Assembly (NCBI GenBank): GCA_032622095.1
Contig: CP136064.1
Location: forward strand, 247,227,827 to 247,291,826
Source: Siphonodentalium dalli
Lineage: Eukaryota; Mollusca; Scaphopoda; Gadilida; Siphonodentaliidae
Reading direction: 5' to 3'
DNA: 64,000 bases
Part shown: positions 4,599-57,478 of the stretch, piece after piece
Layout of the letters: every line of letters begins with the position of its first letter
Numbering within the stretch: position 1 is the first letter of the stretch
Notes under the pieces: generated by a model
What the model was told of the DNA's origin: nothing
The model's input: only the letters and a program-made list of their open reading frames with translations
Databases searched by the model: none
Program-made: the position numbers and the translations under genes

Positions 4599-4632
4599 AG
4601 ATAAGTGTATCAGCATATTTTCATTTCCAATC

Positions 4633-25025: not shown

Positions 25026-26569
25026 ACCATCATAATATAAACAAACACCATAAAAGTAACTTTTTATGCCTTTGTTTACATCACAATGGTCAAACAAATG
25101 ACAATAACATAATGTTTATGCGATATTTCTTATTTGTATACGGACAAAGTCTGTCTACATTTTGACGCTGAAATTTAACTTTAACCCCTCTTTTAAGGGG
25201 TTTTCCAAATTTAAAGAGCGTTTCGTGATTAAATAAGTTATTCAATATCGCAATTAATCCTACCATGAAATATGCGAATTAAAATTAGTCATATAGGTAG
25301 GTATGACTCTGAGAGATATGATGCCACATTTGTAGGGTAAAACTGGAACTCACCGTCCAAGACGGCCGTCAAAATGGCGGCTGAAAGAGGAAATTTGACG
25401 TTTTTTCACTAATATCTTCTAGATAAGGTTCGCTGTGTGGAACTGGTTTGGAGATGGGACTTTATTTTGTATTGTTCGTGTTAACTGATCATTAGAGCAA
25501 TGAAATATGCCATTCGTGTGATTCCAGTCCCTTCCGATCCCTCAATAATTCGATTATACAGAACTCGGTATGACATTTCACCGAAAATCACCGTTAGGAT
25601 TCTAGTCATATTTTAACAAGAAATTGACAGAACTGTGCAAATTAAGTGAGGCATACAATTAATTACGAATATTTGAACTCAATCAACAAAAATTGTCACT
25701 TTGTCGTAAAATGGCTGCCAAAATGGCGGCCAAAACCTGGAAAATGGTAAATATTGCCCCAGCATGCCATGTAATCGCTTACAAGTTGTGATTTACGAAT
25801 ACAATTGGCTATGCTGTCTACATTAAATTTTAGCATTTTTGATGCACATTTGTTAAGTGTTACTAATGTAACCAATGACATTTCCAGAAGTATTGGATTT
25901 TTATATCACAAGCTTGACATCAAAATTGGCAAAAATTTACTTTTCGAGTCTGGACCATTAATTCAAGTAAATGGGACTATCTTTGGTATCAAAGATGTTT
26001 ATTGTTTTTGGTAATTTTGTTTTACATATATCCCGAGTAGTATTCTCTGTTCCCAAGAGTTAGCAAATTGTAACTCACTTGGTTAGTAACCATATTACTT
26101 AATCCACTGACTACTACGTGTTTCATTCTCGTTGTCCCTGTACCTTCTGGGGCATGATTAATTCATTTAAATGATGTACTGTAGTGTGGATTTTTGCCAA
26201 AAATGTCTTTTGGGACTCTGGCCATATATTTTAACGGAAAAAGGCAGAATGTCTAAACGGAACAGAGTGAAACCATATTAGCATAAAAAATCAACTTAAT
26301 GATATGGTGTATATCAAAATGGTAGCCAGGGAGTTATTGTATGGTCATGAATGGTGCGAAGGAGTAGCCTATACGGTGATGGGGTGGTGTGTCCATGGTG
26401 AGATGCATATGTATACAAGGGGTGACTGTATGGTCATGTGTGAGGTGATTAGCTATACAAGGATTATGTGTATGGTTATTGGAGTGGTGTATTCAGTATA
26501 GTACAGTAGGTAGTCATTGTATGTCTCTTTCTTCGGTCTATAGCATGACATTAACCAATGCCCGTGTGA

Positions 26570-27265
26570 TTTGTGGTACAATTCCGAATATCTAGGGTGA
26601 CACCCCATAGTTTCGAATGATCAGTAGGGGTGATTTTATAGATATAAAGTGCTAGTGGTTTCTGGCGCCATTCATGTGGTATGTATATTAAGACAAGGTG
26701 GGATATGAATTTGTGTAATTTTAGAAGGTGTTCTAGACTGATGAAAAAAATAAGTGCAAGTGACCTTGACCCCACCCACAGACAGCAGTGGCGTTTTCTG
26801 CGAAACAGTGGCTCTAGATACTGGGTCCATATTTTAGCACCCAAAATTTGTCATCTGCATTAAAAAATTATTTTCTGGTATTTTTAACGGCGAAAGTTTG
26901 AATTTTTTTCACATTGATGTTGGAAGCCAGAGGCCTTTAAACCAACATAGGTGACCATGCTTGAAAAAAATCTGGTATTCGTGCCCCTTGGGTATGAAAA
27001 TGTATTATTTTGGTCATTTTTTGAATAAAAATCACATTTTTAATCAAAAGATCAAGGGCCATAACTATTGATCGCCTATATATTATGGAAGTTATGTATC
27101 AAATTCTGAATGCCTATTCTGTACTAATTTCAGGCATATATATATATTGTCTATATGGTTTGCATGGGATCATAATCCAGATAAATTTCAATGAATCTAT
27201 GGGCCCCCTATTTTTTGGCCCATTCCTGTTGAAACTGTGGAGTGTCACCTAGAATTGTACCACAA
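26570..27265. mobile_element. Foldback insertion within module BD
   Basis: TGTGGTACAATTC followed by TAGGGTGACAC and CATAGTTTC (26,571-26,613) is mirrored by GAAACTGTGG, GTGTCACCTA and GAATTGTACCACA (27,230-27,264). The 0.7-kb interior is non-coding. It lies in the part missing from the other copy. Confidence 0.55.
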
Positions 27266-27349
27266 AACGACGTTCGTGTCTCCATGGGAATACATGATAT
27301 TGACCAATCAGGACGAGCCTTGTATGTAGGTTTAGGCAAGGTCGTATTA

Positions 27350-27481
27350 CAAGTGTATATATATAGTGACTGTATGGTAATGTGTGGGATATACATGCCT
27401 ACATTGGGTGACTATTGTCACGGATGCGTGTATATGTATGCATATGTTGGCTGTATGATCACGTATGGGACTGCGGGTGTA

Positions 27482-27528
<47 letters not shown>

Positions 27529-27730
27529 TGGTTGTATGCTTATGTGCAATGTATATAGGTGTACATGGAATGACTGTATCATGATTGTTGAAGTGTACAT
27601 GCATACCTGGAGCATAGCTGGATGGTCTTTGGTGGTGTATGGGTATATATGAAGTGCCCATGTGGTCATGGTTGCATATGTGATGTATATGCATCTCTAC
27701 CATATTACGTTATGGGGTGTAATGTTATGT
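27350..27730. repeat. Degenerate TGTATGGTCATGTG minisatellite with an (AT)n tract
   Basis: Imperfect units of 40-50 bp built on TGTATGGTCATGTG and GTATATATGCAT occur here and also at 26,330-26,500. A pure AT run lies at about 27,484-27,526. ORFs rich in YIYIYI come from it. Confidence 0.7.
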
Positions 27731-28936
27731 ATATTACGTGATGTCATTGGCGAACAATGGGGAGCCTCGCCCTGAATTATATTCCTAATAGGTGTATTAC
27801 CGCATAGTATGTTAATTAAAGTGCAGGTAGTAATAATTAAGACCACCCGATATATGTTTATTAACCACGCTTAATCTGGTCAATGTAGTCTAGAGTGTTC
27901 AAAGAAATAACACCGCAGACGAAGCGGTTGCTAATTTTGCTCCCGACGTCAATCAGAGCGTAAGCCCTCCTCTTTGCTAAGAATAGTCGGCCTCTTTCGG
28001 AGAACTTCGGAAATGACGTCACAAGTTGAAGACGTATTTCCCCCAGTGCGCGAATGTAAACAACGAATGTTTTAAAGATATGTTTCGATAAAACACTCAC
28101 GTTTTCGAGTACTTTGCGTTTAATTTGGAGCCAGAATATGATTAAAGTTTTCTACACGCTGTACACGCAGTGCTTTCTTGTGAGTAGCAGCTATTGCATT
28201 CGTCAGATCGCAACCAAATGACGAAATACTGACATCACTGTGGGAAAAATGTGTTAGTTTATTCCACAGGCCTTCTAATTTCTAAACAGTGATAATTGAG
28301 TGATAAATATTTTTTGAATTAATTAGTCCACTTACCGTAATATAGAGAATAGATGAATTAAAATTTGTATTTATTAAGATCTCAGTCACTGTTTAGAAGG
28401 CCTGTACACGTGGTTTCTTCAGAAATAAAAAAAAATCAAACTTCGAACAACTGTACAGGCCTATTCACAGTACTGGAAGTTTGCTTTTGGTGTGTTCAGT
28501 TGCTCCCAAAAGCATCGTGAGTGAGTTTTCACTTGATGGCAATTTGAATTTAAATCCAGGTGTTGTCACAAAATTTTATTAAAAAATTAAGTTTCTACAT
28601 GTAGTAACTGGTGTTTGGGATTCCGTGTGGAGGGGCAGTAGTGGTGGGTATATGTTAAAATGATTGTATTCTCAGTTTTTGAATTCATTTCCCTGAAATT
28701 ATAAGAAGTTTATGTCCTCAGGTAAACAAATATTTCAAAAAAAAAATGGCACAGCACTTAATCTGCCAAACATTGGTATTTACATGTATATCAAATTCAC
28801 GGGGCAATAATTAAGTTAAACATGTAGTGAGGCATCCACAGCTAAGCACTGTAAGTGCATGTAGCCATTTTCCTGTTTCACCCTCTCTGCATGCTGGTCA
28901 ATAAAATAAGACTCATTTAAATTCAAAAACCTTTGT

Positions 28937-29005
28937 ATGACTATATTGTGGCAAATATGATTCAGTGGGTGATATATTGTGGCAAATATGATTCAGTGGG
29001 TGACT
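28937..29005. repeat. Short tandem duplication
   Basis: ATATTGTGGCAAATATGATT followed by CAGTGGGTG appears twice head to tail. An (AT)n run follows at 29,033-29,064. Confidence 0.8.
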
Positions 29006-30246
29006 GTTCTTCATTTCAAGATCTCTCGCTCTCTATATATGTATATATATATATATATATATATCAAGGAACTTCTAGCTCAATCTCATCAGCTATTTAT
29101 CACGGTCATGCAACTACTATTGTCAGCATTCTGTGTTAGAATATCATGTACCGTGGTTCCGTCTCCAGTTTCCAGACATTAAGACCACCTGCAATTAACA
29201 GATTCGAACATCTTACAATGGGGATGGGGAATCAGTGCTAAATTGAGTACTGGTCAGTACATACACCACATACCAATACATTAGGTATATAGCCGTATAA
29301 TGTGTATAATTGTATATACGCCTAAAATGTTGGAAGCATCATGTATCAAATGTTAATTGATTTGTCCCTATCTCAAGGCCAAAGTCAAAATTATTTGTGG
29401 TTAAGGTTTTCCTTACCTACCCTATTACCCCCCCCCCCCCAACTCTAAAGTTTTGTCATGCTTTTCATGAAATTTGTTCTCAATTTTGTATATAAAAAAC
29501 AAAACATAAACTTCAGTGCCTCAATCTGAATGGGATTTTCTCTGTCAAAGCATTGTGCTTATCACAGTTTATACCAAGAAAATCAAAATTAGGCTGATCT
29601 AAATATTTTAGAAGACACGAAAAGCCATATGAAAATGTCAAAGTATAATAACAAAATAATTAAAAAATACACACAGACCGTAAATTTTACATTTTGTTTT
29701 TCTTTGTCATGTAACACTGAATATGTTTCAGACTTAATAGTATCTGAAGTGAAACCGTGATGTGAATTAATTGTGTTGCCTTTTGTGGGGCAAAGAAAAT
29801 CCTGAATTTAAACTAAACAAAAAGAAATGGAAATCCATTGTCTACCACTTACCTCTACAGGTATTCATTTCTAAAAGTTCTCGTGAAGCTGTCAGTGAGA
29901 CATAGATAGACTGCATGAGTGTCTGGATTTTGACGGAATTATCGCACGAGATTTGTTGGCGGAGCGATACCTCGAGTGCTGAACGCGCAACAGGTCATAA
30001 CTGCAGCCCCATAATTACATCGACGCGTCATCGGTTTCGGAAAGAAGAAAGCGTAATGTTTTGGGCGCATTTGGACTCGCGCAGGATTGACTTAATAAAT
30101 CATCATGTTTCAATATAAAGAGCCTCGTTGTTCCTGTTAACTTTGCCAAGGGCGCTATGGGATATTTTGGGCTGGTTTTGTCACGATACACTTTTCGATT
30201 TAAATACATTTACAAAAGTGGCTTTTTCGCTAAATGTATATAAATA

Positions 30247-30296
30247 TAAGGATTAACTGTCATGTGGAAAACAGTCCACATGACAGTTAATCCTTA
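30247..30296. repeat. Perfect 22-bp inverted repeat with 6-base loop
   Basis: The arm 30,247-30,268 (TAAGGATTAACTGTCATGTG and two more bases) is exactly complementary to 30,275-30,296, with AAACAG between. It lies in left-arm-specific DNA of module A, so it may be the trace of a small foldback element. Confidence 0.9.
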
Positions 30297-31188
30297 TACT
30301 AATCTGAATTATTGTAAAACGTGCGTATAATTCCCATATTCACAGAGAGATGAAATGCGATCTTATTGAGAATTTATAATTGACTGGTCAGTCATTGCAG
30401 TTAAATTCAATTCAATTTATTGTATAACTCATCGTCGTGTATTGACATAATTGAGAGTAATATAATAAATACAATTAATATATTATAAATTATTGCATTG
30501 CATATGCTTGGTGTACATTTGAAATATAAGTGTAGTGTTTTTGACCAAATATATATACACGTGTATATAATAATTATATGTGTACATAATATGTGTATAT
30601 AGTCATTTCAATTTGTTTGTTAATTTTAAATGGGGGGGAGTAGGATAAAGAAACAAATAATAATGATGAATTATGATCCGCGGGATATGGACGTTATATT
30701 TTGGACTTTGTTAATATACAAAGCGAGGTTTACCAGTGTTCGTCTATTGCCATAATTAAACAATTCGGCTAGTTTAAATATGTTCGGTCTTCTGTAGTAA
30801 TAATTAACGTAAGTCACTAGCAAAAACCGAAGCAAAATGTGTATATTTTATTTTAAACAGAATTCGCCGACGAATTATAATAGCGCTGGGCTTCCCACAT
30901 CTAACAATGATTAAATATTCTGAAGTTTTATTGAGAAATCGAAAATGAAAGTACAATCAGCCAACAGAGTGCATGCATGGACCTACATTATATGACCCCG
31001 CTGCCATCTGGACTGGTAACATGCATGGACGCGTCCGAACTTTTGGGCGAATAGTTATTTACTTGAGTGATCGATTCCATTTTTAACCAACGAGGGGTAG
31101 GCCTATATTAATATGATATCGCATATGGTTATCATTGCGAACTCGAACAGGTCTAACAAATACACGTGTTCCGTACATTGGGCCACAT

Positions 31189-31272
31189 AGGGTGCTATGA
31201 AGCGTATTTTGTTCTTTATAAATATTTAAAGGGTGCTATGAAGCGTATTTTGTTCTTTATAAATATTTAAAT
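31189..31272. repeat. Direct tandem duplication, about 41 bp
   Basis: AGGGTGCTATGAAGCGTATT with its following 21 bases occurs twice in a row. The right arm has a single copy near 38,350, so this duplication happened after the two arms separated. Confidence 0.9.
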
Positions 31273-31389
31273 AAAAATGAATCGCTTTGGGTTGGCCGAA
31301 TGTGCATGTATCAATAATGCTGCGGCAATGCTGGGTAGAAATAATATATTGATTGATCGTGATCCTCGCCAGCCGACCTTGTAAATTCC

Positions 31390-32533
31390 ATGCGCGGACT
31401 TTTCAAATCTACGTATTTTGATCAGTAGCTGGGTTTTTTTTTTTAAAGCACATGGCTCACAATAAAAATGTAAAATGTTTTCCGCGATAGGCATACAAAA
31501 ATACTCATTGAAAAAAAATAAAAAATTAGCAGATAAATATGAAGAAGAAAAAAATATGAAAATTAATTGGCTGAAGCGAAATTTTTTACGGACTAAAACA
31601 AAATTGTGAAGCCCCCATGCCTCAGAGGAATATATCGCAAAAATCACTGAAAAACGCCAAATCTAGTGATGCCAACTTGATGATAAAAGCTGCTCGAGTA
31701 GGCAGGCGGTCCCATGAGAAATTAGTTAAACAACAGAGGGACGGTGATTGTTCATAAAGCCCCACAAACAGTACAAATAATGTTCAGATATTGTACTTAT
31801 ACTACATAGGGCTAATATTTATAATGGCCAACAAATGTGGACTAAATCACGAAAAAGTACCGTACCCAATATTCTACAGTGGTTGAGGTATCAATTAGTT
31901 ATGGTATTAATTTATTTCTCTGAAAGATGTGGGCAACTGGGTATATCAGTCTATCAGAAACACACACAATCACCCTGTACTATTAATATCGCGCCCCGTA
32001 CTCTTATTTATATGGACCCCCCCCCCCCTGTACCTTTATTTCACCCCGGCTATTATTTGGATCCCGATCGAGAGTAGTGCTACAATCTCTCTGCACCGTC
32101 CAAATTATTTCTAGAATGTTACATTGTTGCCGGAATTTGGTGGATCTGTGACATTTGATAAACAATTATGACAGTTCAAACTCTGATCGGTGAATTGTCG
32201 ATATGTACGGTAGAAAGTCTATCGCAAATCCGAAATCACAATGTCGCAGACAACAACAAAAATAGAACAGCTTAACATCGAAATGCATGCTGCGTCGACC
32301 AATTTTGATCAACGTTACACAAACAATGCAGTCTTCAACTCGTGACGTCACAAGTGCGGAACGTCGCTTTCATGATTTCGCCGATTCAAAAATATTTTTC
32401 CGTGACGTCGTCTTTGATGACGCGCTGTATCAAAACAGTTTTGCAGAAGCGACTTTTACTCTGCAGTGGGTCACTATTTGGAGTTGAATTACATAAATGC
32501 GCGCATATAACCGAAATAGTCGCGACCTACACT
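31390..32533. other. Spacer, no recognised feature
   Basis: Between module A and the TTAA-bounded C2H2 element. Contains a C-run near 32,021 and several GTGACGTC (CRE-like) octamers at 32,340-32,410, but no gene. Confidence 0.45.
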
Positions 32534-33228
32534 TTAAAGGGACACGATGCATTCTGTGTGAATATTAAAGGGAGACAATGCGCTCGCAATGCGTGAATGT
32601 TAAAGGGACGGCACTCTCGGTATGATAATGTTAAAGCGACACGAGGTACTCATAAGGACACTCGGCACTCACTTTGGGTGAATGTTAAAGGGACACACGG
32701 CACTCGCAGTGGGTGCAAGTTAAAAGGACACACAACAAAATTTTAAACTTCAAAATTTCAAAAAAAGATTAAACACTTACAAAACTTAATTTTTTTCAAA
32801 AATAAAAAAAAAATGTTAAAACTTAAAAAAAAAAATCCTAAATTGAAAATAAATTGTAATTTAAAAAATGTTTTTTTTCTTAAAAAAAAAAAAAAATACA
32901 AAACTTTAAAAAAAAAAAAAAAATTGAAACAAAATTGAAATGTTCAAAAATTAAATAAAATTATAAAATTAAACAAAACCAAATTAATTTAAAAAAAAAT
33001 AAAAATTATTTCCAAAAAAAAAAAAAAAAACTTCAAATATTTCAATTTTTTTTAAATCTTTCAAATTGTTCACGAATTATGATATCATTTTACCAATTTA
33101 AAAACTTTAAATTTTCGGGCTCTTAATGTACCTTTTATCAATAAGTATATTTCGTATATCTTCTCTCCCACCCAAATATGAACATATAACGAAGACGGGA
33201 ATAACATTTTGATGAAGTTAATTGAAAT

Positions 33229-33320
33229 TTAATCATTGTCTGAATCTTCGACCGTTAGATTTATTTCTAGGAGTTTCTTGAATTTTCTCATCACTTCATC
33301 CGCATCCCATTCATTATTAT
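33229..33320 (-). pseudogene. C-terminal 28 codons of a second, inverted copy of the C2H2-element gene
   Basis: Reading the left arm on the minus strand from 33,320 gives NNEWDADEVMRKFKKLLEIN, then LTVEDSDND and a stop at 33,229-33,231. The facing right arm starts the same way (NEWVADEAMR, about 34,124) directly downstream of the C2H2 gene, but lacks about 53 bp and stops early. The arms are therefore inverted duplications of the gene's 3' end plus its downstream array. The left copy preserves the better tail. Confidence 0.6.
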
Positions 33321-33613
33321 ATCCACTCGGCACTGTGGATGAATGTTAATAGGACACAACAAAATTTTAAACTTCAAAAATTGCCAAAAAAGATTAAAAA
33401 CTTACAAAACTTTATTTTTTTCTCCAAAAATAAAAAAAATGTTAAAACTTTAAAAACTGAATTTTTTCAAAACATTTAATTTTTTTTTAATTTTTCAAAA
33501 ATAAAAAAAAGAAGAAAATAAACGTACGATTAACGCGGCGGGTGTATACGAAACCATATTCTCACTTCTTTTCGCTGATATAAGGGCGATCGTTCTTCCA
33601 ATAATTCGAGATA

Positions 33614-34124
33614 ATGCACGGCTGCCATTTATGCAGAAAGATCTTCTCGACGAACTACAATCTACAAAGACATAAGAATAGTAAACACGGAGTTATGTCA
33701 GGATCGAAGAAAGATATATTCGGGCGATACGAAGATGCTGCGTATAACCGAGAAACGGTTCTAGATTCGGACGAAGATGAACGGGAAACGTTATCAGATT
33801 CGGAGGATGATACTGTCGCCGGTGGTAGAGCGGTAATCGGCCGTCAGAAAGCTGCGCGATGTGCGGCGAGATGAGCACATTCAAAAGTATGTTGAAACGC
33901 GTCAACGATGATGCAGAAGCGGCGTAAGTGTGGTCTGATAAGGTTGATCAACTGATGGAAGAAGATAGCATGTCCGAAGAAAAGTCTGAGGAAAAAGCTC
34001 AACGAGAATGCATCAACACAGAGTTTGATCTCTTTCTCAAAATTTACAGACGGTTGATAGAATACTAGCATCGATTGAAAACATCCCCCATACATAACAC
34101 TATCATGAAGAAAATGGTCAAATA
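33614..34124 (+). pseudogene. C2H2 zinc-finger protein gene, decayed
   Basis: The product begins with one classical zinc finger (C-x2-C-x12-H-x4-H, residues 4-25; CHLCRKIFSTNYNLQRH). An acidic stretch follows (DSDEDERETLSDSEDD). The frame is lost near 33,860. A second frame (33,856-34,068) continues with WSDKVDQLMEED and SEEKAQRECINTEFDLFLK then YRRLIEY, and past a stop HRLKTSPIHNTIMKK. I recall an N-terminal finger, acid linker and helical tail ending in such an HxLKxDPxH motif from a multicopy, apparently intronless family in marine invertebrates; that recollection is unverified. It is a nucleic-acid-binding protein of unknown role. Confidence 0.6.
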
Positions 34125-34794
34125 ATAATGAATGGGTTGCGGATGAAGCGATGAGAAATGATTAAATTCATATACACTTCATCAAAATGTTATTCTCGTC
34201 TTCGTTATATATTCATATTTGGGTGGGAGAGAAGATATACGAGAGATACTTATTGATAAAAGGTACATTAAGAGCCCGAAAATTTGAAGTTTTAAAATTG
34301 TGAACAATTTGAAAGATTTAAGACATTTAGAAATATTAAAAAAAATTTGTTTTTTGGAAATAATTTTGAAGTTTTTGGAAATAATTTTTTTTTGTTTAAT
34401 TTTTGTTGAAATTTTTCCGTTTTTAAAGTTTTAAGAAAAAAAAAAAAATTTAAATTACAATTTATTTTCAATTTAGGATTTTTTTTTTTAAGTTTTAACA
34501 TTTTTTTTGTATTTTTTTTTAAATTTAAGTTTTGTAAGTGTTTAATCATTTTTGGAAATTTTGAAGTTTAAAATTTTTTTCTGTGTCCTTTTAACTTGCA
34601 CCCACTGCGAGTGCCGTGTGTCCCTTTAACATTCATCCAAAGTGAGTGCCGAGTGTCCCTTTAAAATTCACTTTATGAGTACCACGTGTCGCTTTAACAT
34701 TATCATACCGAAAGTGCCGTCCCTTTAACATTCACGCATTGCCAGCGCATTGTCTCCCTTTAATATTCACACAGAATGCATTGTGTCCCTTTAA

Positions 34795-36206
34795 CATAAT
34801 ATGCGGTAATACACCTATTAGAAATATAATTCAGGGCGAGGCTAATCACCTCACACATGACCATACAGTCACCCCTTGTATACATATGCATCTCACCATG
34901 GACACACCACCCCATCACCGTATAGGCTACTCCTTCGCACCATTCATGACCATACAATAACTCCCTGGCTACCATTTTGATATACACCATATAATTAAGT
35001 TGATTTTTTATGCTAATATGGTTTCACTCTGTTCCGTTTAGACATTCTGCCTTTTTCCGTTAAAATATATGGCCAGAGTCCCAAAAGACATTTTTGGCAA
35101 AAGTCCACACTACAGTACATCATTTAAATGAATTAATCATGCCCCAGAAGGTACAGGGACAACGAGAATGAAACACGTAGTAGTCAGTGGATTAAGTAAT
35201 ATGGTTACTAACCAAGTGAGTTACAATTTGCTAACTCTTGGGAACAGAGAATACTACTCGGGATATATGTAAAACACAATTACCAAATGTGGTTGCCATT
35301 TTGGAAGCCATCTTGAGTAATGTTGTCTTAAAACACATTAGTGTGACGCATTTAAGACAGACCAAAAACAATAAACATCTTTGATACCAAAGATAGTCCC
35401 ATTTACTTGAATTAATGGTCCAGACTAGAAAAGTTAATTTTTGCCAATTTTGATGTCAAGCTTGTGATATAAAAATCCAATAATTCTGGAAATGTCATTG
35501 GTTACATTAGTAACACTTAACAAATGTGCATCAAAAATGCTAAAATTTAATGTAGACAGCATAGCCAATTGTATTCGTCAATCACAACTTGTAAGCGATT
35601 ACATGGCATGCTGGGCCAATATTTACCATTTTCCAGGTTTTGGCCGCCATTTTGGCGGCCATTTTCCGACAAAGTGACAATTTTTGTTGATTGAGTTCAA
35701 ATATTCGTAATTAATTGTATGCCTCACTTAATTTGCACAGTTCTGTCAATTTCTTGTTAAAATATGACTAGAATCCTAACGGTGATTTTCGGTGAAATGT
35801 CATACCGAGTTCTGTATAATCGAATTATTGAGGGATCGGAAGGGACTGGAATCACACGAATGGCATATTTCATTGCTCTAATGATCAGTTAACACGAACA
35901 ATACAAAATAAAGTCCCATCTCCAAACCAGTTCCATACAGCGAACCTTATCTAGAAGATATTAGTGAAAAAACGTCAAATTTCCTCTTTCAGCCGCCATT
36001 TTGACGGCCGTCTTGGACGGGGAGTTCCAGTTTTACCCTACAAATGTGGCATCATATCTCTCAGAGTCATACCTACCTATATGACTAATTTTAATTCGCA
36101 TATTTCATGGTAGGATTAATTGCGATATTGAATAACTTATTTAATCACGAAACGCTCTTTAAATTTGGAAAACCCCTTAAAAGAGGGGTTAAAGTTAAAT
36201 TTCAGC
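34795..36206 (-). repeat. Module BD, right copy (compact)
   Basis: Inverted counterpart of 25,166-26,455 and 27,764-27,811, here without the 1.3-kb interruption. Relative to the left copy it has about 90 extra bp near 35,285-35,375. Its inner end abuts the TTAA of the C2H2 element, at the same base where the left copy abuts module A. Confidence 0.85.
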
Positions 36207-36325
36207 GTGGCTCCATATCTAATATCAATAAGTGTGTGAATATGTACATATGTGCAAAGTTTCATGCTTTAGTCACAATTTGAACAATTGCCTTGAAATT
36301 TTTACTTAATCTACTCCACTATACA

Positions 36326-36682
36326 GGCATGTGGCGGTGTCGGTGTGCCCTGGGCAGAGTACGAACGGGTATATATACTGTCGGTGTCGGTGTGTCCTGG
36401 GCAGAGTATAAACGAATATATATGTATATGTACATAAAGCACACGGTATATACGGGCATGTGGCGGTGTCGGTGTGCCCTGGGCAGAGTATAAACTAATA
36501 TATATGTATATGGCACACACATATAGAGCTGGGTTCTGGGATACTTCAGCACCCAGTAACCATACTTGCGCATGGCGGTGTCGGTGTGTCCTACGTATCC
36601 ATATATATATACATATATATATATTAAATATATATATATACATATAGTATATATATATATTAAATATATATATATACATATA

Positions 36683-36722
<40 letters not shown>
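36326..36722. repeat. GTGGCGGTGTCGGTGTG minisatellite and AT-rich palindromic tract
   Basis: GGCGGTGTCGGTGTG plus YCCTGGGCAGAGTA occurs four times with spacings of about 50-110 bp (36,333, 36,380, 36,463 and 36,573). From 36,597 to 36,722 there are alternating TATATA blocks. ORFs here are repeat translations. Confidence 0.8.
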
Positions 36723-36725
<3 letters not shown>

Positions 36726-37511
36726 CGTGTCGATAATATATATGGAGAAATATATATGATTTCGTGCGTCTTACATGAAGACCTAGCCTGAAGGGGTCAC
36801 TCGCACCAAAAAAAGGGCTGAAGGGTACGTACCACCTGTGGGTTACTTATAACCGACTCGCAACTCATATCTGGTTTAGCTCAATTATGGCTTTCAGTTT
36901 GAGCACACTTGGTTTTCTTAATCGTGTAACAATAAAGAGCGTTTCGTGTTAATCAATTCCTAATATGGTACTAATAAAGAGCGTTTCCGTGTCTTCAGTG
37001 CGACATATTGAAAACAACTTGGAAAATTGCTTTGGCAAGATTTTCAAAGTACATGTATATTATATTAATAACCTTGTGAAATACAGGCAACGATGTATCG
37101 GTTCATTCATCACATCTGAACTGAACTTAACTGATTTTTATTTATAAATCAAATTATGCATATTATACACAATAACAATGGGGCTCTGTAGAAGGCATGG
37201 CTTATGGGCCAGAGCCCTATAATAGCATGATAAATACAATAATGAATATAAACTGAGTGCAGGTAGGTGCAAGGATTGGGGAGAGTTTGGGGCTGGGGGT
37301 GGGGTGCAAGATTACATGGTATGCATTATATGTTGGACGATGCTCATAAAGTATATATATTAAGTCAACTCCAAGAACAATTTAAAATGTTTTATGTGAA
37401 TGTCAAGGATGTGGCTGTACAATCAGTGGACCTCATTTAGGTTTGAGATATGTGGTAGTTTAGTTTATACTTTCAGATTTAAGTTTAGAATTGGCCATTG
37501 ATACGGCTGAA
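36723..37511. other. Spacer with an isolated paired GAGCG cassette
   Basis: At 36,929-36,987 two AATAAAGAGCGTTTC motifs stand 42 bp apart, as in the TTAA MITEs, but the MITE ends are not recognisable. Nothing else identified. Confidence 0.55.
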
Positions 37512-37880
37512 TTATTGTACTCGTTTTCTTATAAAGTAATCTTTTAAATATTTAAGGTATTCTGGGCTACTAATTTTAATGCGTAGTGTGCAGTCTGCGG
37601 GGAGGCTATTCCATAATTCTCGCGCTTTGTTTGAGATTTCACTTTTTGAGTTTTTAGTCCTTTTGAATTCATGATAAAGATTACCTTTTGTTTTTCCGCG
37701 GGTATTATAGCTATGGATATCTTCAATATGCGTGAATACTTTTGATAACGAATCCGGTAGTGCATGCATATGATAATCATGTAGTATGTGTGCCCCAATA
37801 AAAAAAACTAGTAACATGTCACGTGCTCTCGGTGTGGAAATTCCGAAGGTGTGGCTAAATGTTGTTAAAATAGTATCCAT
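37512..37880 (-). pseudogene. LINE RT C-terminal fragment
   Basis: 122 open residues containing HSYNTRGKTKGNLYHEFKR and KARELWNSLPADC, the post-RT tail typical of CR1/L2/Jockey-group LINEs. The stop is at 37,512. No RT core lies upstream; module A's right arm begins at 38,217. It could be the 3' end of the same element as the RT fragment at 43.9-44.8 kb (same strand, correct order), with module A in between. Confidence 0.8.
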
Positions 37881-38655
37881 GACGTCATGTTATACCGGAA
37901 GAGAAATTCACAAATCGACAAATAAAGTAGATTGTTGACGAGCGGTCGAAAGTTTAAAATCAAGAATCACCGGAATTTGGATTGCAGGCAACTGTAATTA
38001 GGGTACACCTGACCAATCTTTGGAGCTAATAATACGGCTGTGTAAGGTCGGGAGGGTTTCGGTGGGGTTGGTGGTAGAATTGTGTTGCTCTTCGCTCGTT
38101 TTGGCTGCGGTGGTACTACTGTACTGGGAACTGATAGATCGTTTTGTTATGTCATTTAACTTTTTTTTAGTTCTGTAGTATCAGTATGAATCTGAGTGTA
38201 TGTTTACATAGACTGGGAATTTACAAGGTCAGATGGCGAGGATCACGAAGCAATCAATATTATTTCCACCCAGCATTGCCGCAGCATTATTGATGCACAT
38301 TCGGCCAACCCAAAGCGATTCATTTTTATTTAAATATGTATATAAAGAACAAAATACGCTTCATACTAGTTAGCACCCCTATGTGGCCCCTATGTATGGA
38401 ACACGTGTATTTGTTAGACCTGTTCGAGTTCGCAACGATAACCATGCTATATCATATGAATATAGGCCTAGGCCTACCCCTCGTTGGTTAAAGAATGGAA
38501 TCGACCACTCAGTAAATAGCCAACCATTCGCCCAAAAGTTCGGACGCGTCCATGTATGTTTACCAGTCCAGATGGCAGCGGGGTCATATAATGTAGGTAT
38601 ATTGCATGCACTCTGGTGGCTGATTGCACTTTCATTTTCGATTTCTCAATACACG

Positions 38656-39687
38656 CAGAGACGTGGCGACAGGGGGGGGGGGGGGGGGGTCTCACACCCC
38701 CCCCCCAACTTTGGTCATAATTTTCAACAGTTGGAAATTTCATACCTGACACAACATTAGTTGGAAATTTCACACCAATAATAGGTTGAAAATGTTCTTG
38801 TAGTTTGATTTTCAATCAATATATTGGGGGAATTTATTGTTTTTGGACCAATATTTACATATTTTCCTTCTTTTGGTAAAATTTTTGGACTGAAATGGCC
38901 ATTAGTTAGAAATTTTCCAACCTTAGGGGGGGTGTCAGGTTGGAAATTTCCAACACTTGGAAAGCTTGTGTCCTGGTCCCCACCCCGTGGCTAGTAAAAA
39001 ACTTCTAGTTAATTTAAGAAAACAATATTGTCCTACATTTGGTCAAAATTGTCACTGGAATTGTCATCAGTTGGAAATTTTCCAACCAAAGTCAGTTGAA
39101 ATTTCCAACTCTATGAATGCTTGAGGCTAGTCTAGATGCTAGGATTTTGCGATTTTCTTGTTAAGATTTCAAAATTTTCTAATACCGGGCCGAACCATGG
39201 TCGGCCCGGTGTGTCCTGGTCCCTCCCCGTGGCCAATACAAAACTGCTAATGAGTTTCTAGATGCTAGGATTTTGCGATTTTCTTGTTTAGTTTTCAAAC
39301 TTTTCTCACACCGGCCGAAAAACCATGGTCGGCCCGGTGTGTCCTGGTCTATTGCCTATAGTCGTGTGCATTTGTCTGGAGTTAGACCACTAGATGTTAG
39401 GTTTTTGGCAATTTTCAGGTTCAAAATATATGAATATTATCATACCGGGTAGCTAGAACCATGGTTTATAAATAGGCTATTAGGCCTGTGAACACTTAGG
39501 TGCAAGGAGGGGGGGATTATGCAAAACCTTTGGTCTGATTCAAGGGGTGTTATGGTTTGATTCAAGGGGTGTGTGCAAATGGAATTATGCAAAACCTTGT
39601 GTGATCTGATTCAAGGGGGGGGGGGGGGTGCAGTTGGAATTAGCAAGGTTGACACCCCCGAACGGAGAACATCTAGCCACGTCCCTG
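38656..39687. mobile_element. hAT-like MITE with 8-bp target duplication AATACACG
   Basis: Ends CAGAGACGTGGC and GCCACGTCCCTG. AATACACG flanks it at 38,648-38,655 and 39,688-39,695; an 8-bp duplication and CAGRG ends are hallmarks of hAT elements. The interior has repeated GTTGGAAATTTCCAAC palindromes (38,727-39,115) and GC-rich palindromes around AACCATGGT (about 39,184 and 39,301), plus G/C homopolymers. Non-coding. Confidence 0.9.
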
Positions 39688-40853
39688 AATACACGTATAT
39701 TTAATCATTGTTAGATGTGGGAAGCCCGGCGCTATTAATTCGTCGGCGACTTTTGTTTAAAATGTGCACATTTTGCTTCCGTTTTTGCCAGTGACTTACG
39801 ATTTTTTAGCAGAGAAATTATTAAACGTAGGGATCCCAAATATAAGCATGGTACTTTCTTGGAAATAAATAAGCGTATCGGCACGTTTATTTCGATCGCG
39901 AGAGTATGACTACATATACACGGAGTATTATGTCTGACTGACAGCTTCACGAGAACTTGGAGAAATAAATACCTGTAGAGGTAAGTGGTAGACAATGGAT
40001 TTTCCATTTCTTTTTGATTTGTTTAGTTTAAATTCAGGATTTTCTTTGCCCCACAAAAGGCAACACAATTAATTTACATCACTGTGTCACTTCAGATACT
40101 ACCAAGTCTGAAACATATTCAGTGTTACAAGCCAAATACAAACAAAATGTTAAATTTACGGTCTGTAGGCATTTTAAAATTATTTTGCTTTTAGATCAGC
40201 CTAATTTAGATTTTCTTGGTATAAACTGTGATAAGCACAATGCTTTGACAGAAAATCCCTTCAGATCGAGACATTGATGATATACAAAATTGAGAAAAAA
40301 ATTCTTGAAAAGCATGACAAAACTTTAGAGTGTGTGGGGGGGGGGTAATATTTAGGGTAGGTAAGGAAAACCTTAACCACAAATATATTTGTCTTTGGCT
40401 TTGAGATAGGGACAAATCAATCAACATTTGATACACGATTCTTCCAACAGTGTATGCGTATATACAATTATACACCATATATGGCTATGTGACTAACGTA
40501 TTGGTATTTGGTGCATGTAGTATTTGTACAGACCAGTACTCAAATTAGCGCTGTGATTCCCCATCCCCATTGTAAGATTTTCGAATCTGTTAATTGCAGG
40601 TGGTCTTAATGTCTGGAAACTGGAGACCGAACCACGGTACATGATATTCTAATACAGAATGCTGAAAATGGTAGTTGCATGACCGTGATATATAGCTGAT
40701 GAGATTGAGCCAGATATTCCTAGATATATACATATATAAAGGTTTTTGAATTTAAATGAGTCTTATTTTAGTGACCAGCATGCAGATAGTGTGAAACAGG
40801 AAAAATGGCTACATACACTTACAGTGCTTTGTTGTGGATGCCTCACTCTATGT

Positions 40854-41251
40854 TTAAACGGACATGGCTCATTCGAACCTCCAAATTTCTTTCTACGTAA
40901 TTTGGAGCGACGGATACAATAGGTCAACAAATAAACGAACTTTTGATATACCGGTTTCATATGGTTTGAAAAACTCTTGCTAAAATCCCAGCCGTTTTCA
41001 ACTTTTCGCCAGAAGTCAGATAAACGCTCTTTATTGTTACCATATCTGGAATGGATTACCACGGATCGCTCTTCTCTATTCCATGTCGTGCAATTGGCTG
41101 CTTTGTGTTTGGGATCAATGCATCTTTTTGGGTTACAGAATGCTCGTAGAAAGATTGATATTTATCAACCTATTTCGTTCGATACCGGGAAAATTTAAAA
41201 AGCGTATAATATTATTTGCGTTTTGGAGCGCAAATCGCCATGTGGCTTTAA
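40854..41251 (-). mobile_element. TTAA MITE family 2, copy 3, with empty site elsewhere in window
   Basis: Bounded by TTAA; ends ACGGACATGGC and GCCATGTGGCT. The corresponding point of the left arm (28,816-28,819) has a single TTAA and no insert, proving both the boundaries and the TTAA duplication. The paired CGCTCTT motifs are at 41,025 and 41,067. Confidence 0.92.
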
Positions 41252-41398
41252 TTTAATTATTGACCCCAGAATTTGATATACATGTAAATTATGTGCTGTC
41301 CCTTTTTGATTTGAAATATTTATTTACCCGAGGACATAAACATTTCAGAAAAATGAATTCAAAAACTGAGAATACCATCATTTTAACATATACCCACC

Positions 41399-42516
41399 CA
41401 GGGATGTGGCTAGAGGGGGGGGGGGGGGGGTGTCTCACCCCCAGCAGAGAGCTATATTTTCAATAGTTGGAAATTTCATACCTGCCACAACGAAATTTCA
41501 CACCAACAATAGGTTGAACATGTTCTTGTAGTTTGATTATAAAACAATTTATTGGGGGGAATTTGTTGTTTTTCGACTAATATTTGCATATGTTCCTATT
41601 TTTTGTCAAATTTTTTGACAGAAATGGACATCAGTTGGAAATTTTCCAACCTTAGGGGGGGGTGACAGGTTGGAAATTTCCAACACTTGGAAAGCTTGTG
41701 TCCTGGTCCCTCCCCCGTGGCCAGTCAAAAACTTCTAGTTAATTTAAGAAAACAATATTGTCATACAATTGGTCAACATTGTAATTGGAATTGTCATCAG
41801 TTGGAATTTTTCCAACCTAAGTGGGGGTGTAGGGTTTGAAATTTCCAACAGTAGGAAGGCTTGAGGCTAGTCTAGGTGTTAGGATTTTGCGATTTTCTTG
41901 TTCAGATTTCAAAATTTTCGCACACCGGGCCGAACCATGGTCGGCCCGGTGTGTCATTGCCCCATCCACGTGGCCAATACAAAACTGCTAATTAGTTTAG
42001 CAAAACAATATTTTACTACATTTGGTCAAACTTGTAGACATAAATGGTCATCAGTTGAAGAATTTTCCAACCTGAGGGGGAGCATGAGGTTTGAAATTTC
42101 CAACACTAGGAAAGCTTCAGTTGAGGCCAGTCTAGATGCTAGGATTTGCGATTTTCTTGTATATAGTTTTAAAATTTTTCTCACACCCGGGCCAAACAAC
42201 CATGGTTGGCCCGGTGTTTCCTGATCTGTTGTCGGTAGCTGTGTGCATTTGTCTGGAATTAGATCACTAGTTGTTTTTTTGGGGGGCAATTTTCAGGTTA
42301 AAATATCTTAATGTTCTCATACTGGGAAAATAGAAGCATGGCTTATGAATATATAGGAAATTAGGCCTGAGCATGAGGTACAAGGGGGGGGGGGGTGCAA
42401 ATGGAATTATGCAAAAAGTTGTGTTGGTGTGATTCCGACTCAATGGGGGGGGGGTGCAGTTGGAAATTCCCAAGGTGGACACCCCCCCCAGCGGAGACCC
42501 TCTAGCCACATCCCTG
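41399..42516. mobile_element. hAT-like MITE with 8-bp target duplication TACCCACC
   Basis: Ends CAGGGATGTGGCTAGA and CTAGCCACATCCCTG. TACCCACC flanks it at 41,391-41,398 and 42,517-42,524. The left arm of module A shows the unoccupied site GGTGGGTA at 28,643-28,650. The interior resembles the element at 38,656, including GTTGGAAATTTCCAAC and CCATGG-centred palindromes near 41,924 and 42,190. No ORF of substance. Confidence 0.95.
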
Positions 42517-43882
42517 TACCCACCACTACTGCCCCTCAACCCCGAATCCCAAACACCAGTTACTACATGTAGTAACTTGATTTTAAGAGAGAGAGGGAGG
42601 GGTGAAATCCTGCATACCAGTTAAGAAAATATCGACAACATGGCATGGCAATTGATATAGTTGACAAAGATTTATACCTAACTTCAATAACCAAGAGCAA
42701 TAAGGGTAAATTACATCGACAACATTATATTTGTAATTTGAGCCAAACACAATCTAAAGTTTTGAGAATTTTGTGGTATAAAGCTGCTTACAATTAATGC
42801 AGGCTATTTGCATAATCCTGGATATCAGTTTAATAAATGGAGCGGTATAGTGCGATAATTAGTCCGAGGCAACCTTGGTCGCAATCCTTGGATCCTCTTC
42901 AGAAACGACCCCCAAACCTGTCGAATCTGCGGCCCATTCTATGATATACCGGTACCCCCTTCACCCACACCCTGCTAAGAAGATGCATAGGGTATGATAT
43001 TAGAGGGTGTGGTCAGAAATAGGGGTATCTCCGGGTCACTGTTGAAGCTCCAACTCATGTAGTCATGTGCTTGAAGTTGTACAATTGGGTGGTTTAAGAA
43101 CACTATATATTGTATTTCATTTCATTTTTAATATAATTTTGTGGCATCACCTGGATTTAAATTCAAATAGCCATCAAGTGAAAACTCACTCACGATGCTT
43201 TTGGTAGCAACTGAACACACCAAAAGCAAACTTCCAGTACTGTGAATAGGCCTGTACAGTCGTTCGAAGTTTGATTTTTTTTTTTTCGGAAGAAACAACA
43301 GGCCTTCTAAACAGTGACTGAGATCTTAATAAATACAAATTTGAATACATCTATTCTCTATATTACGGTAAGTGGGCTAATTAATTCAAAAATATATAAT
43401 ATCACTCAATTATCACTGTTTAGAAGGCCTGTAGTTAGTGTGAAAGAAACTAACACGTTTTACCCACATTGATGTCAGTATTTCGTCATTTCGTTGCGAT
43501 CTGACGAATGCAATAGCTGCGACTCACAAGAAAAGCACTGCGTGCATAAAACTTTAATCATATTCTGGCCCCAAATTACATGCAAAGTACTTGAAAACGT
43601 GAGTGTTTCATCGAAACATATCTTTAAAACTTGCATTGTTTACACTCGCGAACTGGGGGAAATACGTCTTCAACTTGTGACGTCATTTCCGAAGTTCTCC
43701 GAAAGAGGCCGACTATTCTTAGCAAAGGGGAGGGCTTACGCTCTGATTGACGTCGGAGCCAAATTAGCTACCGCTTCGTCTGCGGTGTTATTTCTTCGAA
43801 CACTCTAGACCACATTGACCAGATTAATCGTGGTTAATTAACATATATCGGGTGTTATTAATTATTACTACCTGCACTTTAA

Positions 43883-44830
43883 ATAATTTGTGGATATCTC
43901 TATCAGAACAAAAGGCATTTTTGTCATCTGCAAAAAGTATCAATTTAGCATCCTTGCATATACTTGGTAAGTCATTCATATAGATTAAAAATAAGAGAGG
44001 CCCTAAGATTGAGCCTTGTGGGACCCCACAGGTAATTTCATTGAGTTCTGATATATGGCCATCATATTGAACGCATTGTTTTCTATGAGTAAGATAATCC
44101 TTGAACCAGTTCAGTGCAACCCCTCGACATCCGTAGTGCTCTAGTTTTTGAAGCATTATTCTATGATTTATTGTATCAAATGCCTTAGATAGGTCGTGGA
44201 ACACTCCAATTGTGTGTTCGTGATTGTCTAAGGCACCAGTTATTTTCTCTATAAGGACAGTCAAAGCTAGAATTGTGGAATTATTCTTCCTAAAGCCACA
44301 CTGGCTGCTGTATAAAATCTTGTGTTTTTCTAAGTATTAATTTAATCTATTATACATGAGTTTTTCCAAGTACTTTTGAAAAGATTGGTAGCACCGATAC
44401 AGGTCTGTGGTTACTGACTATACTTGCATCTTTAGATTTGAAGATTGGGGATACTTTAGCAAATTTTATTCGTTCTGGGAATACACCTTGGGAAAGAGAT
44501 AGGTTACAGATATGTGTCAATGGTACGATAAAGGAATCTGCACATTGTTTTAAGATGCCACATTTAAGTTCATCTAAGCCAGCTGCTTTTTTTTTAGTCT
44601 ATATTTTTCAGTATGTATATTATTTCTAATTCTCCAGCAGATTCAACAAATATTGAAGATGGGTTGGGAAGGGGGAGAAATTCCTTTGGATCATTGGTTG
44701 AATTTATCTTTTTTGCTAGATTAGGACCTATATTTGTAAAAAATAACAAGGCATGCACTTCCAGAGAATGCTTGTGGGACAGGCCATTTAAAAAGTTTCA
44801 GCTACTGGAAAATTAGTTTCTGATATAAAA
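43883..44830 (-). pseudogene. LINE reverse transcriptase core, truncated and frameshifted
   Basis: On the minus strand: a region with PVSVLPIFSK and GFRKNNSTILAL spread over frames (about 44,280-44,420), then FHDLSKAFDTINHRIML, GVPQGSILGPLLFLIYMNDL and LILFADD (43,900-44,264). These are RT motifs with the catalytic FADD box. The gene is cut at 43,883 by module A and has several frameshifts upstream. It is a different subfamily from the LINE at 20.7-25.0 kb. Confidence 0.85.
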
Positions 44831-50611: not shown

Positions 50612-50930
50612 TGTTCTCCCGAAAACCAGCATATTATCTGCTTATAATATAACGTATTTTGTAGATAATCTATCTACTCAGAATCGCCTCATTTTTAGTC
50701 GAAAATCTGCAGAAAATAAGAACATTTTAGTCACATTATCGACTAATAATGAGGCATTTCTAAGCAGATTATGTGCGGACAATGATACAAATGTACGCTC
50801 TTTAACTAGTGTTTTCACTGTGGCCCGCGCTATAAAACGAAATAACGGGTAAGAGTCCATTATCTGCTTATTGCAGAATCAAATAATCACATTATGTGCA
50901 TATAGGTCGATTATGTGCGTATTTCCGCGA
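50612..50930 (-). mobile_element. MITE, family ACGCACATAATCGACCTAT, second copy
   Basis: Reverse orientation relative to 12,609-12,955: starts CCCGAAAACCAGCATATT and ends AGGTCGATTATGTGCGTATTT. The left boundary of the tandem duplication (about 50,722) falls inside it. Confidence 0.7.
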
Positions 50931-51540
50931 GGATATCTTGAACGTACATATGTAGATCGTGTTTTTGTGTTGTTAATCCATGGGTTGTTGGCAGATCTCG
51001 CACTGACCACAAATAGTCTAGCCAAAAGTTTAGCCAACTAATATTGTTTTTAGCGAAATGATATATATTTAGCCAAATGAATTTTTTTGAGCCAATTTTC
51101 ATTTGGACAAAATTCATTGGAAAAAACCCATTTTGGTAGTGATATCAACTTTATTAATAACAGAACGAGACATATATAATATATAAACATGACAGACAAC
51201 AATGCATACATGGTAAAATAATATGTGAGCAGTTGACATGAAAACAGATATATTTCGGCAATTACATGTGAACTTTGCTGTTAATTCTTCCGATATTGTT
51301 TTTCGACTTCGCAATGAAGTATGCATTTCAAATGGGAGAGAGATATAGTTTTATTCCTCCATATCAGAAGATAATATGTTGCAATCATACACAATTATTT
51401 ACATTACATGATATCACATTATAAAATATAAATAATGGCAATTCATTGTCGATTATCATAGGAAATTAGTGTATACGCGAAATTCATCTACACGACGCGC
51501 AAATAAAGCAGCTGCACAATGTCTAAAAAGTTGTTCCTCG

Positions 51541-51778
51541 TCACACATGAGGTGTATTTCCGATCGTATACATCCACCGAAACGTTCTGTCGGTCATTGA
51601 ATCTAACATATTGTAAACTTCAACTGTATAGTGGTCACCAGAAAGAGTTTCGCGTTGTCATTGCGAACTCGGAAGAACAGTCAGTGTACATATGAAACAA
51701 CTGGTTGGAAAACGCTCGTTGGCAATGGTGACACAGTGAATCGTTGTCATATGTCGTTCTGTTGAGAATGTTAGCCAT
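51541..51778 (-). pseudogene. QADD-type LINE C-terminal tail (duplication copy 1)
   Basis: Same sequence as 55,289-55,537, but an 11-bp deletion near 51,648 breaks the frame after the zinc knuckle. Confidence 0.65.
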
Positions 51779-52228
51779 CTGAATACTTAAAGCAGAGAAG
51801 GACTGCTCTTCTCGCCATAAACATCATATTCTCCAAGTGCTAAATGGGTCTGGTTTAACTTGGTAGAAAAAGTGCATATTCGATAATTGTGGTGGATGTG
51901 ATTGATTTCTCTTGATTTGGCGAGTACAGCTTTCCGGACATCATCCATCGATGTACAGTCTCGAACAATACCTACAGCTGCTATGTGCGAATTAACACAT
52001 GAAAGAAATCAAATAAAGCCTTAATTTGTAATCTAAATAAAAATTGATTGTATAGTCAGGATTAACTCCCGATTATTAATGTCTTAACATCCCCGGTAAG
52101 AGTTACTAGTTAGACAATGCATGGTCGTATATTAAATACAACTTGTTGGTGTTAGATGAGTCGTATACGTGCGTAATATATAATACTGTTGTTCAGTTGT
52201 ATCAATTTCCCCCAATGCGTTAAATATC

Positions 52229-52652
52229 TTAAAGCCACATGGCGGTTTGCGTTCCAAAATACACATAATGGTATGAGCTTTTGAATTTTTCCCGTTATCG
52301 AAATAGGTCGATATATGTCTTACTACCTTTCTACGAGCATTATGTAACCCCAAAAGACGCACTGTGGTAATGGAAAATACAATTATGAACGCGGTGTTGG
52401 GGTCCCAAACAAAATGAACAAAAAAGAGCGTTCCGCATTGGTATATTCCTGACACGGTATAAATAAAGAGCGTTTGTCTTACTTCTGGCGAAAATTTAAA
52501 ACGGCTGGAAACTGGTCGTGACTTTGGCAAGTGTTTTTCAGAGCATATTAAGCCGATATGTCAATATTTCGTGTATTTGTCGACCTATCGTATCCGTCCC
52601 TCCAAATTACGCAGACAAAAGTTGGGAGGTAAGAGTGAGCAATGTCCGTTTA
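52229..52652 (+). mobile_element. TTAA MITE family 2, copy 4
   Basis: TTAAAGCCACATGGCGGTTT at the left; AATGTCCGTTTAA at the right. Paired GAGCG motifs at 52,428 and 52,470. Duplicated with its flanks as 55,988-56,412. Confidence 0.85.
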
Positions 52653-52899
52653 AAACATTTTACACCATCTGTGTATTTGCTATTCTCACCGTTTTTCATC
52701 AAACTGGGGGTCGGTCCTCAATTGCCCTTGGGGGAAAAAACCTTGTCTTTGAGGGATGGGTGTCCGAGATCGGAAAGGAAAACAACTTGCGTTCCAGGGA
52801 TGGTAAGTAAAAAAAAAAATTTTAAACCCAGAAATTTCAACCTTGTATCCTGGAATTTGTTCCTGCCACCACACCCTCTGTTTCAAACGAATACGAACC

Positions 52900-52961
52900 T
52901 TTTTTTTTACCGTGGCAATGCGGCTTATATATATAAAAGCCACATCGCCACGGTAAAAAAA
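52900..52961. repeat. Hairpin TTTACCGTGGC...GCCACGGTAAA
   Basis: TTTTTTTACCGTGGCAATGC then GGCTTATATATATAAAAGCC then ACATCGCCACGGTAAAAAAA: arms of about 23 bp with two mismatches around an AT loop. Repeated in the second duplication copy at about 56,658-56,719. Confidence 0.8.
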
Positions 52962-54158
52962 TATATTGTCTTCGGATTTTCCTCCCAGACCCCTGGACCG
53001 ACTTCAACCAAATTTGTTGTGGTGACTCGGGGTACCCTGGAGGAGGTTATAACTGCGTTAGTTTTTCAAAATTTTGATTTAACAATGTTTAAAGTCAAAT
53101 CAAATCAAATAAGCTCATTATGGGCTTCAGACGACAGTCGCATGGAATTCCCAAGACAAGGGGAATTCCATCAGCCGGCGCGGATTCCAGTAAACCTCGC
53201 CCAATAGTTATAAATAGCACAATTATTTTTCCTCCGCATGACTAAATGTTTACAAATTCAGTTTTACGACAGCACATTTAACACTGAAAAGCGTAATTAA
53301 AGAGTGCAGAATTGACCAATATTACTTAATATGTCAAATATAATTGAATCTTTTAAGAAATTCAACATTTAGTACCGAATAAAGTCGCGATGTCATAAAT
53401 TTATTTAATTTCTGGCATAAGATAATAACATCGAAATTAAACGAAGAAAATATATCTTGTATCGATTTATAAACGCAATTAAAGTTTGTTAGAAGTGATT
53501 AATCTCTGTTAAAATGTCACAAGGCGCAGAAGATATTCTGTGAGAATGCGAAGCATCAATTTTCGTAGGAAACGAAAGACTTTTGCGGAAAGTAAACGCT
53601 TACGCGGAAACGAAACCGAATCTACATTATGTTAATCAAAGCGGTAAATAGCGGGTTTCTTCAGACTCAGTACTTTTCGAGTCTGAGTATGGTTTTAATC
53701 AGACTGATCCTTGACATAACCATCTCGGCTACGGGGTATAATTGTGTGGTTTGAAGATGTAAAATGTGGCGACGCTTGAGTCAGGGAGAGGGGAGGAGCA
53801 CCAACGTTGGTAAAACTATTTTAGCGCCGATTTGCACAGAATTGATACATATTCTTCTGCATGATACGCGGAATCTGATTATGTGGTTTACAGACGCCAT
53901 ATTGGTGCCGTTTGGGATGGGGAGGGGCACTAACATTGATAAGAATGTTTTAGTTGCGATTTCCAACTAAGTTATATATAGTCATCTATGTAATTCGAGA
54001 ATTCTAATTATGTGGTCTAAAGAAACCATTGTGTAGCTGATTTTCACCAAACTTAAATAATCATCTATACAAGGAATATAATGACAAGGGATTAAAGGCG
54101 GCGTCGTAGGGACCAGGTATTTGGGACAGGATGTCACCAGAATGCCGGCATAAAACAT

Positions 54159-54245
54159 TTAAAGATACGGGCGGCGTTGGCGGTGGGTATATGCTGTTAA
54201 AATATTCAGATCCGTCAAAAACCGCCATAAACAAAAATACTTTGG
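54159..54245 (-). mobile_element. TTAA MITE family 1-like terminal fragment
   Basis: TTAAAGATACGGGCGGCGTT then GGCGGTGGGTAT and CCGTCAAAAACCGCC reproduces the right end of the 62,858-63,386 element in inverse orientation. It recurs at about 57,997-58,083 in the duplicate. Confidence 0.6.
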
Positions 54246-55288: not shown

Positions 55289-55537
55289 TCACACATGAGG
55301 TGTATTTCCGATCGTATACATCCACCGAAACGTTCTGTCGGTCATTGAATCTAACATATTGTAAACTTCAACTGTATAGTGGTCACTAATAAAATACCAG
55401 AAAGAGTTTCGCGTTGTCATTGCGAACTCGGAAGAACAGTCAGTGTACATATGAAACAACTGGTTGGAAAACGCTCGTTGGCAATGGTGACACAGTGAAT
55501 CGTTGTCATATGTCGTTCTGTTGAGAATGTTAGCCAT
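55289..55537 (-). pseudogene. QADD-type LINE C-terminal tail (duplication copy 2)
   Basis: 82 open residues: MANILNRTTYDNDSLCHHCQ, a C-x2-C...H-x4-C knuckle, then RNSFWYFISDHYTVEVYNML. Closely related to the + strand fragment at 13,886-14,437, where MANILNRTTYDN is identical. The RT core is missing. Confidence 0.7.
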
Positions 55538-57399: not shown

Positions 57400-57478
57400 T
57401 TATTTTTAAAGACAAATGTGGGCGGTGACGTCATATTGCATACTATATACTGTGGAAGTTATTTATAGCGACAGTAAT
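57400..57478. other. 79-bp segment present only in duplication copy 2
   Basis: Between ATCAAAG and CGGTAAATAGCGGG, copy 2 has 79 extra bp starting TTATTTTTAAAGACAAATG. No clean flanking repeat marks it as an insertion, so it may be a deletion in copy 1. Confidence 0.85.

Follow-up and report, generated by a model that had tools for sequence, protein, structure and literature searches.

A palindrome with a decayed C2H2 gene as the probable inner part of a long-armed transposon in Siphonodentalium dalli

The segment 32534-34794 of the window is, very probably, the inner part of a transposon that belongs to a non-autonomous, cut-and-paste family. The window is the whole stretch of Siphonodentalium dalli DNA that was analysed (64,000 nucleotides). 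The members of this GGCTAGG-ended family have 30-bp terminal inverted repeats (TIRs), 8-bp target duplications and long inverted arms. The features of the window copy and of its surroundings are as follows.

25165..27815, plus strand: left outer arm (F), truncated on its outer side; positions 555-2370 of the L015 element, by alignment to L015
27816..32533: secondary insertion of another transposon that duplicated TTAA; its termini are AGTGCAGGT...CCTACACT
32534..32733: left array, 6 heads TTAAAGGGACAC, period about 35 bp (head count, repeat period)
32737..33093: AT-rich part of the left arm (arm comparison)
33094..33323, minus strand: 3' flank and 28 final codons with stop, most likely from a second C2H2 gene, the bulk of which is deleted
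33324..33500: a truncated additional array unit with AT-rich sequence, separating the left gene end from the right gene
33505..33613, plus strand: promoter-side upstream region of the C2H2 gene, found in sibling copies
33614..34158, plus strand: decayed C2H2 gene, with an open N-terminal 86 aa and then broken (comparison with the L028 copy)
34157..34300, plus strand: 3' flank of the C2H2 gene (inverted match of 33094-33237)
34585..34794: right array, 7 heads, inverted orientation (head count, repeat period)
34795..36788, minus strand: right outer arm (F'), lacking about 1.3 kb of the L015 sequence after 34843
36759..36788, minus strand: true terminus, the 30-bp TIR GGCTAGGTCTTCATGTAAGACGCACGAAAT (outward loss of similarity, genome matches, duplications)

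An earlier note had described the palindrome from the letters alone, and much of its description agrees with our measurements. The string TTAAAGGGACAC heads the array units and reads inward from 32534 and, on the minus strand, from 34794. The arms are inverted copies of a gene end plus array, as had been proposed: 32534-33237 and 34157-34794 align at 79% over 718 columns. The inverted match reaches 97% in the outer 122 bp of these arms, and it is 92% between 33094-33237 and 34157-34300. The unit length and the unit number had to be revised. The arrays have a period of about 35 bp (spacing between heads 31-54), instead of 45 bp. There are six heads in the left arm and seven in the right (up to two substitutions from TTAAAGGGACAC), instead of four to five units in each. 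With the same tolerance, 14 of the 20 TTAAAGGGACAC-like sites of the window are within 32534-34794. The controls were 20 block-shuffled windows (single bases shuffled in 500-base blocks), and each holds 2-8 such sites in total, against the 20 observed. The sequence at 33324-33456 is an 84% direct match to 32694-32830. From the centre to the end, each arm presents the C2H2 gene end, the AT-rich stretch, the 35-bp array, the F region and the terminus. Elsewhere in the window, 11542-11817 is a 95% palindrome in which a 30-bp tandem repeat forms two arrays of opposite orientation.

We searched the 2.23-Gb assembly (9 contigs) for copies with the gene start. From 1340 first-look candidates, at least 40 matches were obtained. 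Twenty ten-kb loci were fetched, covering 26 of the 40 matches; the window is the 27th, and 13 were left out. The ranking of matches favoured window-like copies, and later pieces were added to the 20 loci. Twelve loci (L009-L020, class A) have the fused core of the window.

The sibling arms go on for more than 2 kb beyond the TTAA and end at GGCTAGGTCTTCATGTAAGACGCACGAAAT. In L012, L014, L015, L018 and L020, the F sequence continues inverted on both sides past the last array TTAA. Read outward, the similarity among class A copies stops directly after GACCTAGCC. A 30-bp TIR, beginning GGCTAGGTC, is conserved at the element ends. The query for the genome-wide search was the first 23 bases of GGCTAGGTCTTCATGTAAGACGCACGAAAT; the terminus GGCTAGGTCTTCATGTAAGACGC had 92 matches versus 0 for the reversed pattern (up to three mismatches). 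We picked 25 end pairs by hand from these 92 matches, and one left end serves in two of the pairs. Of the 25, 11 have exact target duplications of 8 bp, and two more have one mismatch. In the other 12, no duplication of 8 bp is seen even if one mismatch is allowed (three have 6-bp or shifted repeats, nine have nothing). Among mis-paired controls, 0 of 600 had zero or one mismatch in the 8 bp. Given the conserved 30-bp ends and the 8-bp duplications, the GGCTAGG-ended family is very probably one of cut-and-paste DNA transposons.

The copies differ greatly in size and content. The L015 element has 10,111 bp and the target duplication GTTTCTCA, and its left arm can be aligned to the right arm over 3.1 kb, with gaps. 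The copies L036 and L037 measure 136 and 158 bp, have exact 8-bp duplications and hold nothing but TA repeats between their two 30-bp ends; we take them to be like MITEs with microsatellite cores. Unlike MITEs, the family also comprises palindromes of several kilobases that contain a gene. Exact duplications are also present at the gene-less copies L040 and L041. A 24.4-kb copy (L075-L077), likewise with an exact duplication, contains mostly an array of satellite units of about 174 bp. In an 8.8-kb copy (C2:72298590), the central 3 kb include 1.3 kb of further F arm and no open frame longer than 104 aa. No transposase-bearing partner of the family was found in the element copies examined: visual inspection of their ORF listings revealed none, and seven ORFs compared with Pfam gave no match.

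The window copy spans from 25165, where the left end is lost, to 36788, and has one terminus only. Its left F arm is an inverted match to 34841-36208 at 99%. According to the L015 alignment, the left arm lacks its outermost 554 bp, for which the window has no match elsewhere.

The TTAA at 32534 mimics an element end because a TTAA-duplicating transposon sits between the left F arm and the left array. This insertion (27816-32533) has 4.7 kb, the TIR TTAAAGTGYAGGT and TTAA on both sides, and its left side bears an extra TTAA. It presents the Kolobok-type marks of TTAA duplication and RR...YY termini. Its sole listed ORF of at least 100 aa (31267-31647) has a DUF match below threshold (E 0.047). 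Among the fetched loci, 12 show the F-TTAA-array junction uninterrupted, at 19 places in all. The TTAA was therefore rejected as the element end: it is an internal junction in the siblings, and the left boundary of the TTAA-bounded element proposed before comes from the second transposon. L009 has the same insertion junction as the window (95.7% over 3662 columns), so the composite of element and TTAA transposon has more than one copy. A second copy of the insertion, inverted and truncated on the inner side, is located at 38216-43886. A reverse-transcriptase frame adjoins it (RVT_1, E 6.7e-20). Both copies belong to a transposon with 5'-AGTGYAGGT. This inverted copy creates a false outer palindrome in the window. 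We considered 27812-43886 as a single giant palindromic element and discarded this reading; the TTAA transposon lies there twice, in opposite orientations.

The centre holds a decayed single-finger C2H2 gene, as had been noticed. More precisely, 33614-33874 encodes one C2H2 finger in an 86-aa frame, with a Pfam zf-C2H2 match (E 2e-4, 22 bits) under the Pfam cut-off of 25.2 bits. Compared with the L028 copy, the window gene has deletions of 1, 17 and 32 bp. Every one of the 15 class A gene copies has the 1-bp and 17-bp deletions; the 32-bp deletion at the gene end occurs in 12 of them. L011 (two copies) and L019 present a different gene end. In this survey, 11 copies were scored by deletion size; positions were listed for the other four and for the window copy, L010 and L012. 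Among the copies with positions listed, the 1-bp deletion is at position 250 of the L028 frame. The deletions shared by 15 of 15 copies, and the gene-less copies with exact duplications, indicate that the C2H2 gene is a passenger in the GGCTAGG family.

We also compared eight C2H2 families aligned to L028. Summed over 28 pairwise comparisons, which are not independent, the differences at codon positions 1/2/3 were 412/516/337. Thus, there is no third-position excess between the families. L028 conserves an open frame of 203 aa, and with this frame a living relative of the gene may exist. No relative of the C2H2 protein appeared at E<=1 in a large protein set, which may hold few animals, and none was confirmed in viral contigs. 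Pfam and PDB gave finger-level or weak matches only. Since the protein sets are possibly poor in animals, the missing relatives do not show novelty.

The left arm also encodes, on its minus strand, the last 28 codons and intact stop that had been described; they read NEWDADEVMRKFKKLLEINLTVEDSDND-stop. The gene end is complete in this arm, and the right gene is without part of its own end. Two divergent C2H2 genes lie inside palindromic arms in L021-L024 (the L021 arms have 2.4 kb at 97%). L025-L028 have a single gene each, and a small palindrome is located upstream of the L028 gene. The double-gene loci, and the intact left end against the shortened right end, suggest that the 28 codons on the left most likely remain from a second gene and were not copied from the present right gene.

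In 17 of the 20 gene loci, a match to the array of the window occurs close to the gene. No match to this array was detected in L022, L025 and L027, where a diverged array could escape detection. L040 has the array without a gene. The earlier note had made this pairing its own test, and by that test the pairing is loose: gene and array go together in the 17 loci, and the array of L040 and the three genes without an array match are exceptions. The pairing looks like shared descent, as far as the sequences tell. That gene and array sit in a larger mobile element was broadly correct too. That the array forms its terminus was not, because over 2 kb separate the array from the GGCTAGG ends. The outer arms of the double-gene loci L021-L024 differ from those of the GGCTAGG family; the ends of L021 and L024 were sought, and none could be delimited. 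We tried GGGCGAGGCTCCCC as the terminus of the gene-array core. It was rejected, as 11 of 15 fetched termini stretches continue into common sequence. The sequence departs at GGGCGAGGCTCCCC in L028, L026 and L089-L091, and L094 follows only partly beyond.

The literature searched gave no description of the GGCTAGG family, and processes of known kinds account for it well. The Galileo source (PMC4168063) describes a Foldback-like element of the P superfamily in Drosophila, which took an ORF end into its TIR and expanded tandem repeats in its TIRs. By this description, the GGCTAGG family is like Galileo in its very long inverted arms, which vary through tandem-repeat expansion and recruitment of inner sequence. 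Galileo duplications of 7 or 8 bp resemble the 8 bp observed here, and the ORF end in its TIR is a precedent for the gene end in the window arm. In contrast, Galileo has a P-type transposase; among the ORFs listed for the GGCTAGG copies, none was noticed. Merlin has 5'-GG termini, 8- or 9-bp duplications and TIRs of 24-462 bp, as stated in PMC8101967. The family shares the 5'-GG terminus and the 8-bp duplication, and its minimal 30-bp TIR is in that range. In contrast, its arms of about 3 kb are above it, and no IS1595-type transposase was noticed among the listed ORFs of the copies. Merlin would suit the family by the 5'-GG and the 8 bp only. With Kolobok and KolobokP, as PMC9587614 describes them, the likeness is limited to the insertion at 27816-32533, with its TTAA duplication and 5'-RR...YY-3' termini. 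Unlike them, the host element has 8-bp duplications that are not TTAA at its GGCTAGG ends, so it does not share the Kolobok TTAA duplication, and no transposase was seen.

In the reading that we prefer, a transposase supplied in trans would act on the 30-bp ends. The palindrome would have arisen by inverted duplication of one arm with a whole C2H2 gene, and most of the left gene would have been lost in a later deletion, ahead of the multiplication of the GGCTAGG family. In that family, the gene would be carried as a passenger. The window copy has further gained the TTAA transposon between the left F arm and the array, and has lost its outer left end. The alternative of a self-moving, TTAA-bounded palindrome of gene ends and arrays, piggyBac- or Kolobok-like, draws on the TTAA at both apparent ends of 32534-34794; the AG...CT beside it would suit Kolobok termini (PMC9587614). 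It is hardly credible against the internal junction in the 12 fetched loci, the inverted F region outside the TTAA on both sides in L012, L014, L015, L018 and L020, and the second transposon that creates the left boundary. An inverted segmental duplication, or breakage and fold-back, might instead have made the palindromes, with the repeated ends as hitchhikers. The inverted-copy flanks in L050/L051 and L066/L067/L068 and the L021 arms, which reach outside the array, agree with such an origin. The exact 8-bp duplications (11 of 25 pairs versus none of the 600 controls), also present at the 136- and 158-bp copies, make it very unlikely.

A working selfish unit is also conceivable. In it, the C2H2 protein would putatively bind its own 35-bp array, the palindrome would keep two copies, and the GGCTAGG family would be a degenerate offshoot. 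The joint matches of gene and array in 17 of 20 loci, the array held in both arms and the 203-aa open frame in L028 speak for this. We consider it rather unlikely, because the third-position excess is absent over the 28 comparisons and gene-less copies have exact duplications. We give a similarly low probability to the broader idea of selfish palindromes, in which a C2H2 gene and a putatively bound array, as two divergent copies around a spacer, might serve as a module for different transposons. The non-autonomous, long-armed transposon family remains our preferred explanation.

We compared the arms over a 501-bp piece of F, which left out nine shorter matches. The 17 arms are 95.5-99.8% alike. 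The arm pairs of the window copy (99.6%), L040 (99.8%) and L041 (99.4%) cluster by element, and the window value is equalled by the window copy against L039. The pair of L012 (96.0%) does not cluster by element. In three of four elements, the arms thus stayed alike within the element or arose anew. Beyond the paired termini of L050/L051 and L066/L067/L068, the flanking sequences repeat each other in inverted orientation. It means that these palindromes may have grown past the transposon.

The family is a well-anchored case of variation among long-arm palindromic transposons. It ranges from minimal copies of two 30-bp ends to long ones whose arms include arrays and a gene end, and some palindromes seem to enter the flanking DNA. 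The gene-plus-array module is common to elements with different outer arms. For annotation by eye, the nested TTAA insertion is a trap, as it can imitate an element boundary.

Two other features of the window were recorded. The region 2961-7204 is a Maverick/Polinton-like fragment with separate open frames, an integrase core (rve, E 3.6e-10) and a chromodomain (E 8.5e-6). Its ATPase matches are weak and below threshold, and its polymerase-like end was seen by eye only, with no Pfam match. Finally, 50717-54466 and 54465-58304 form a large tandem duplication with 98.7% identity.
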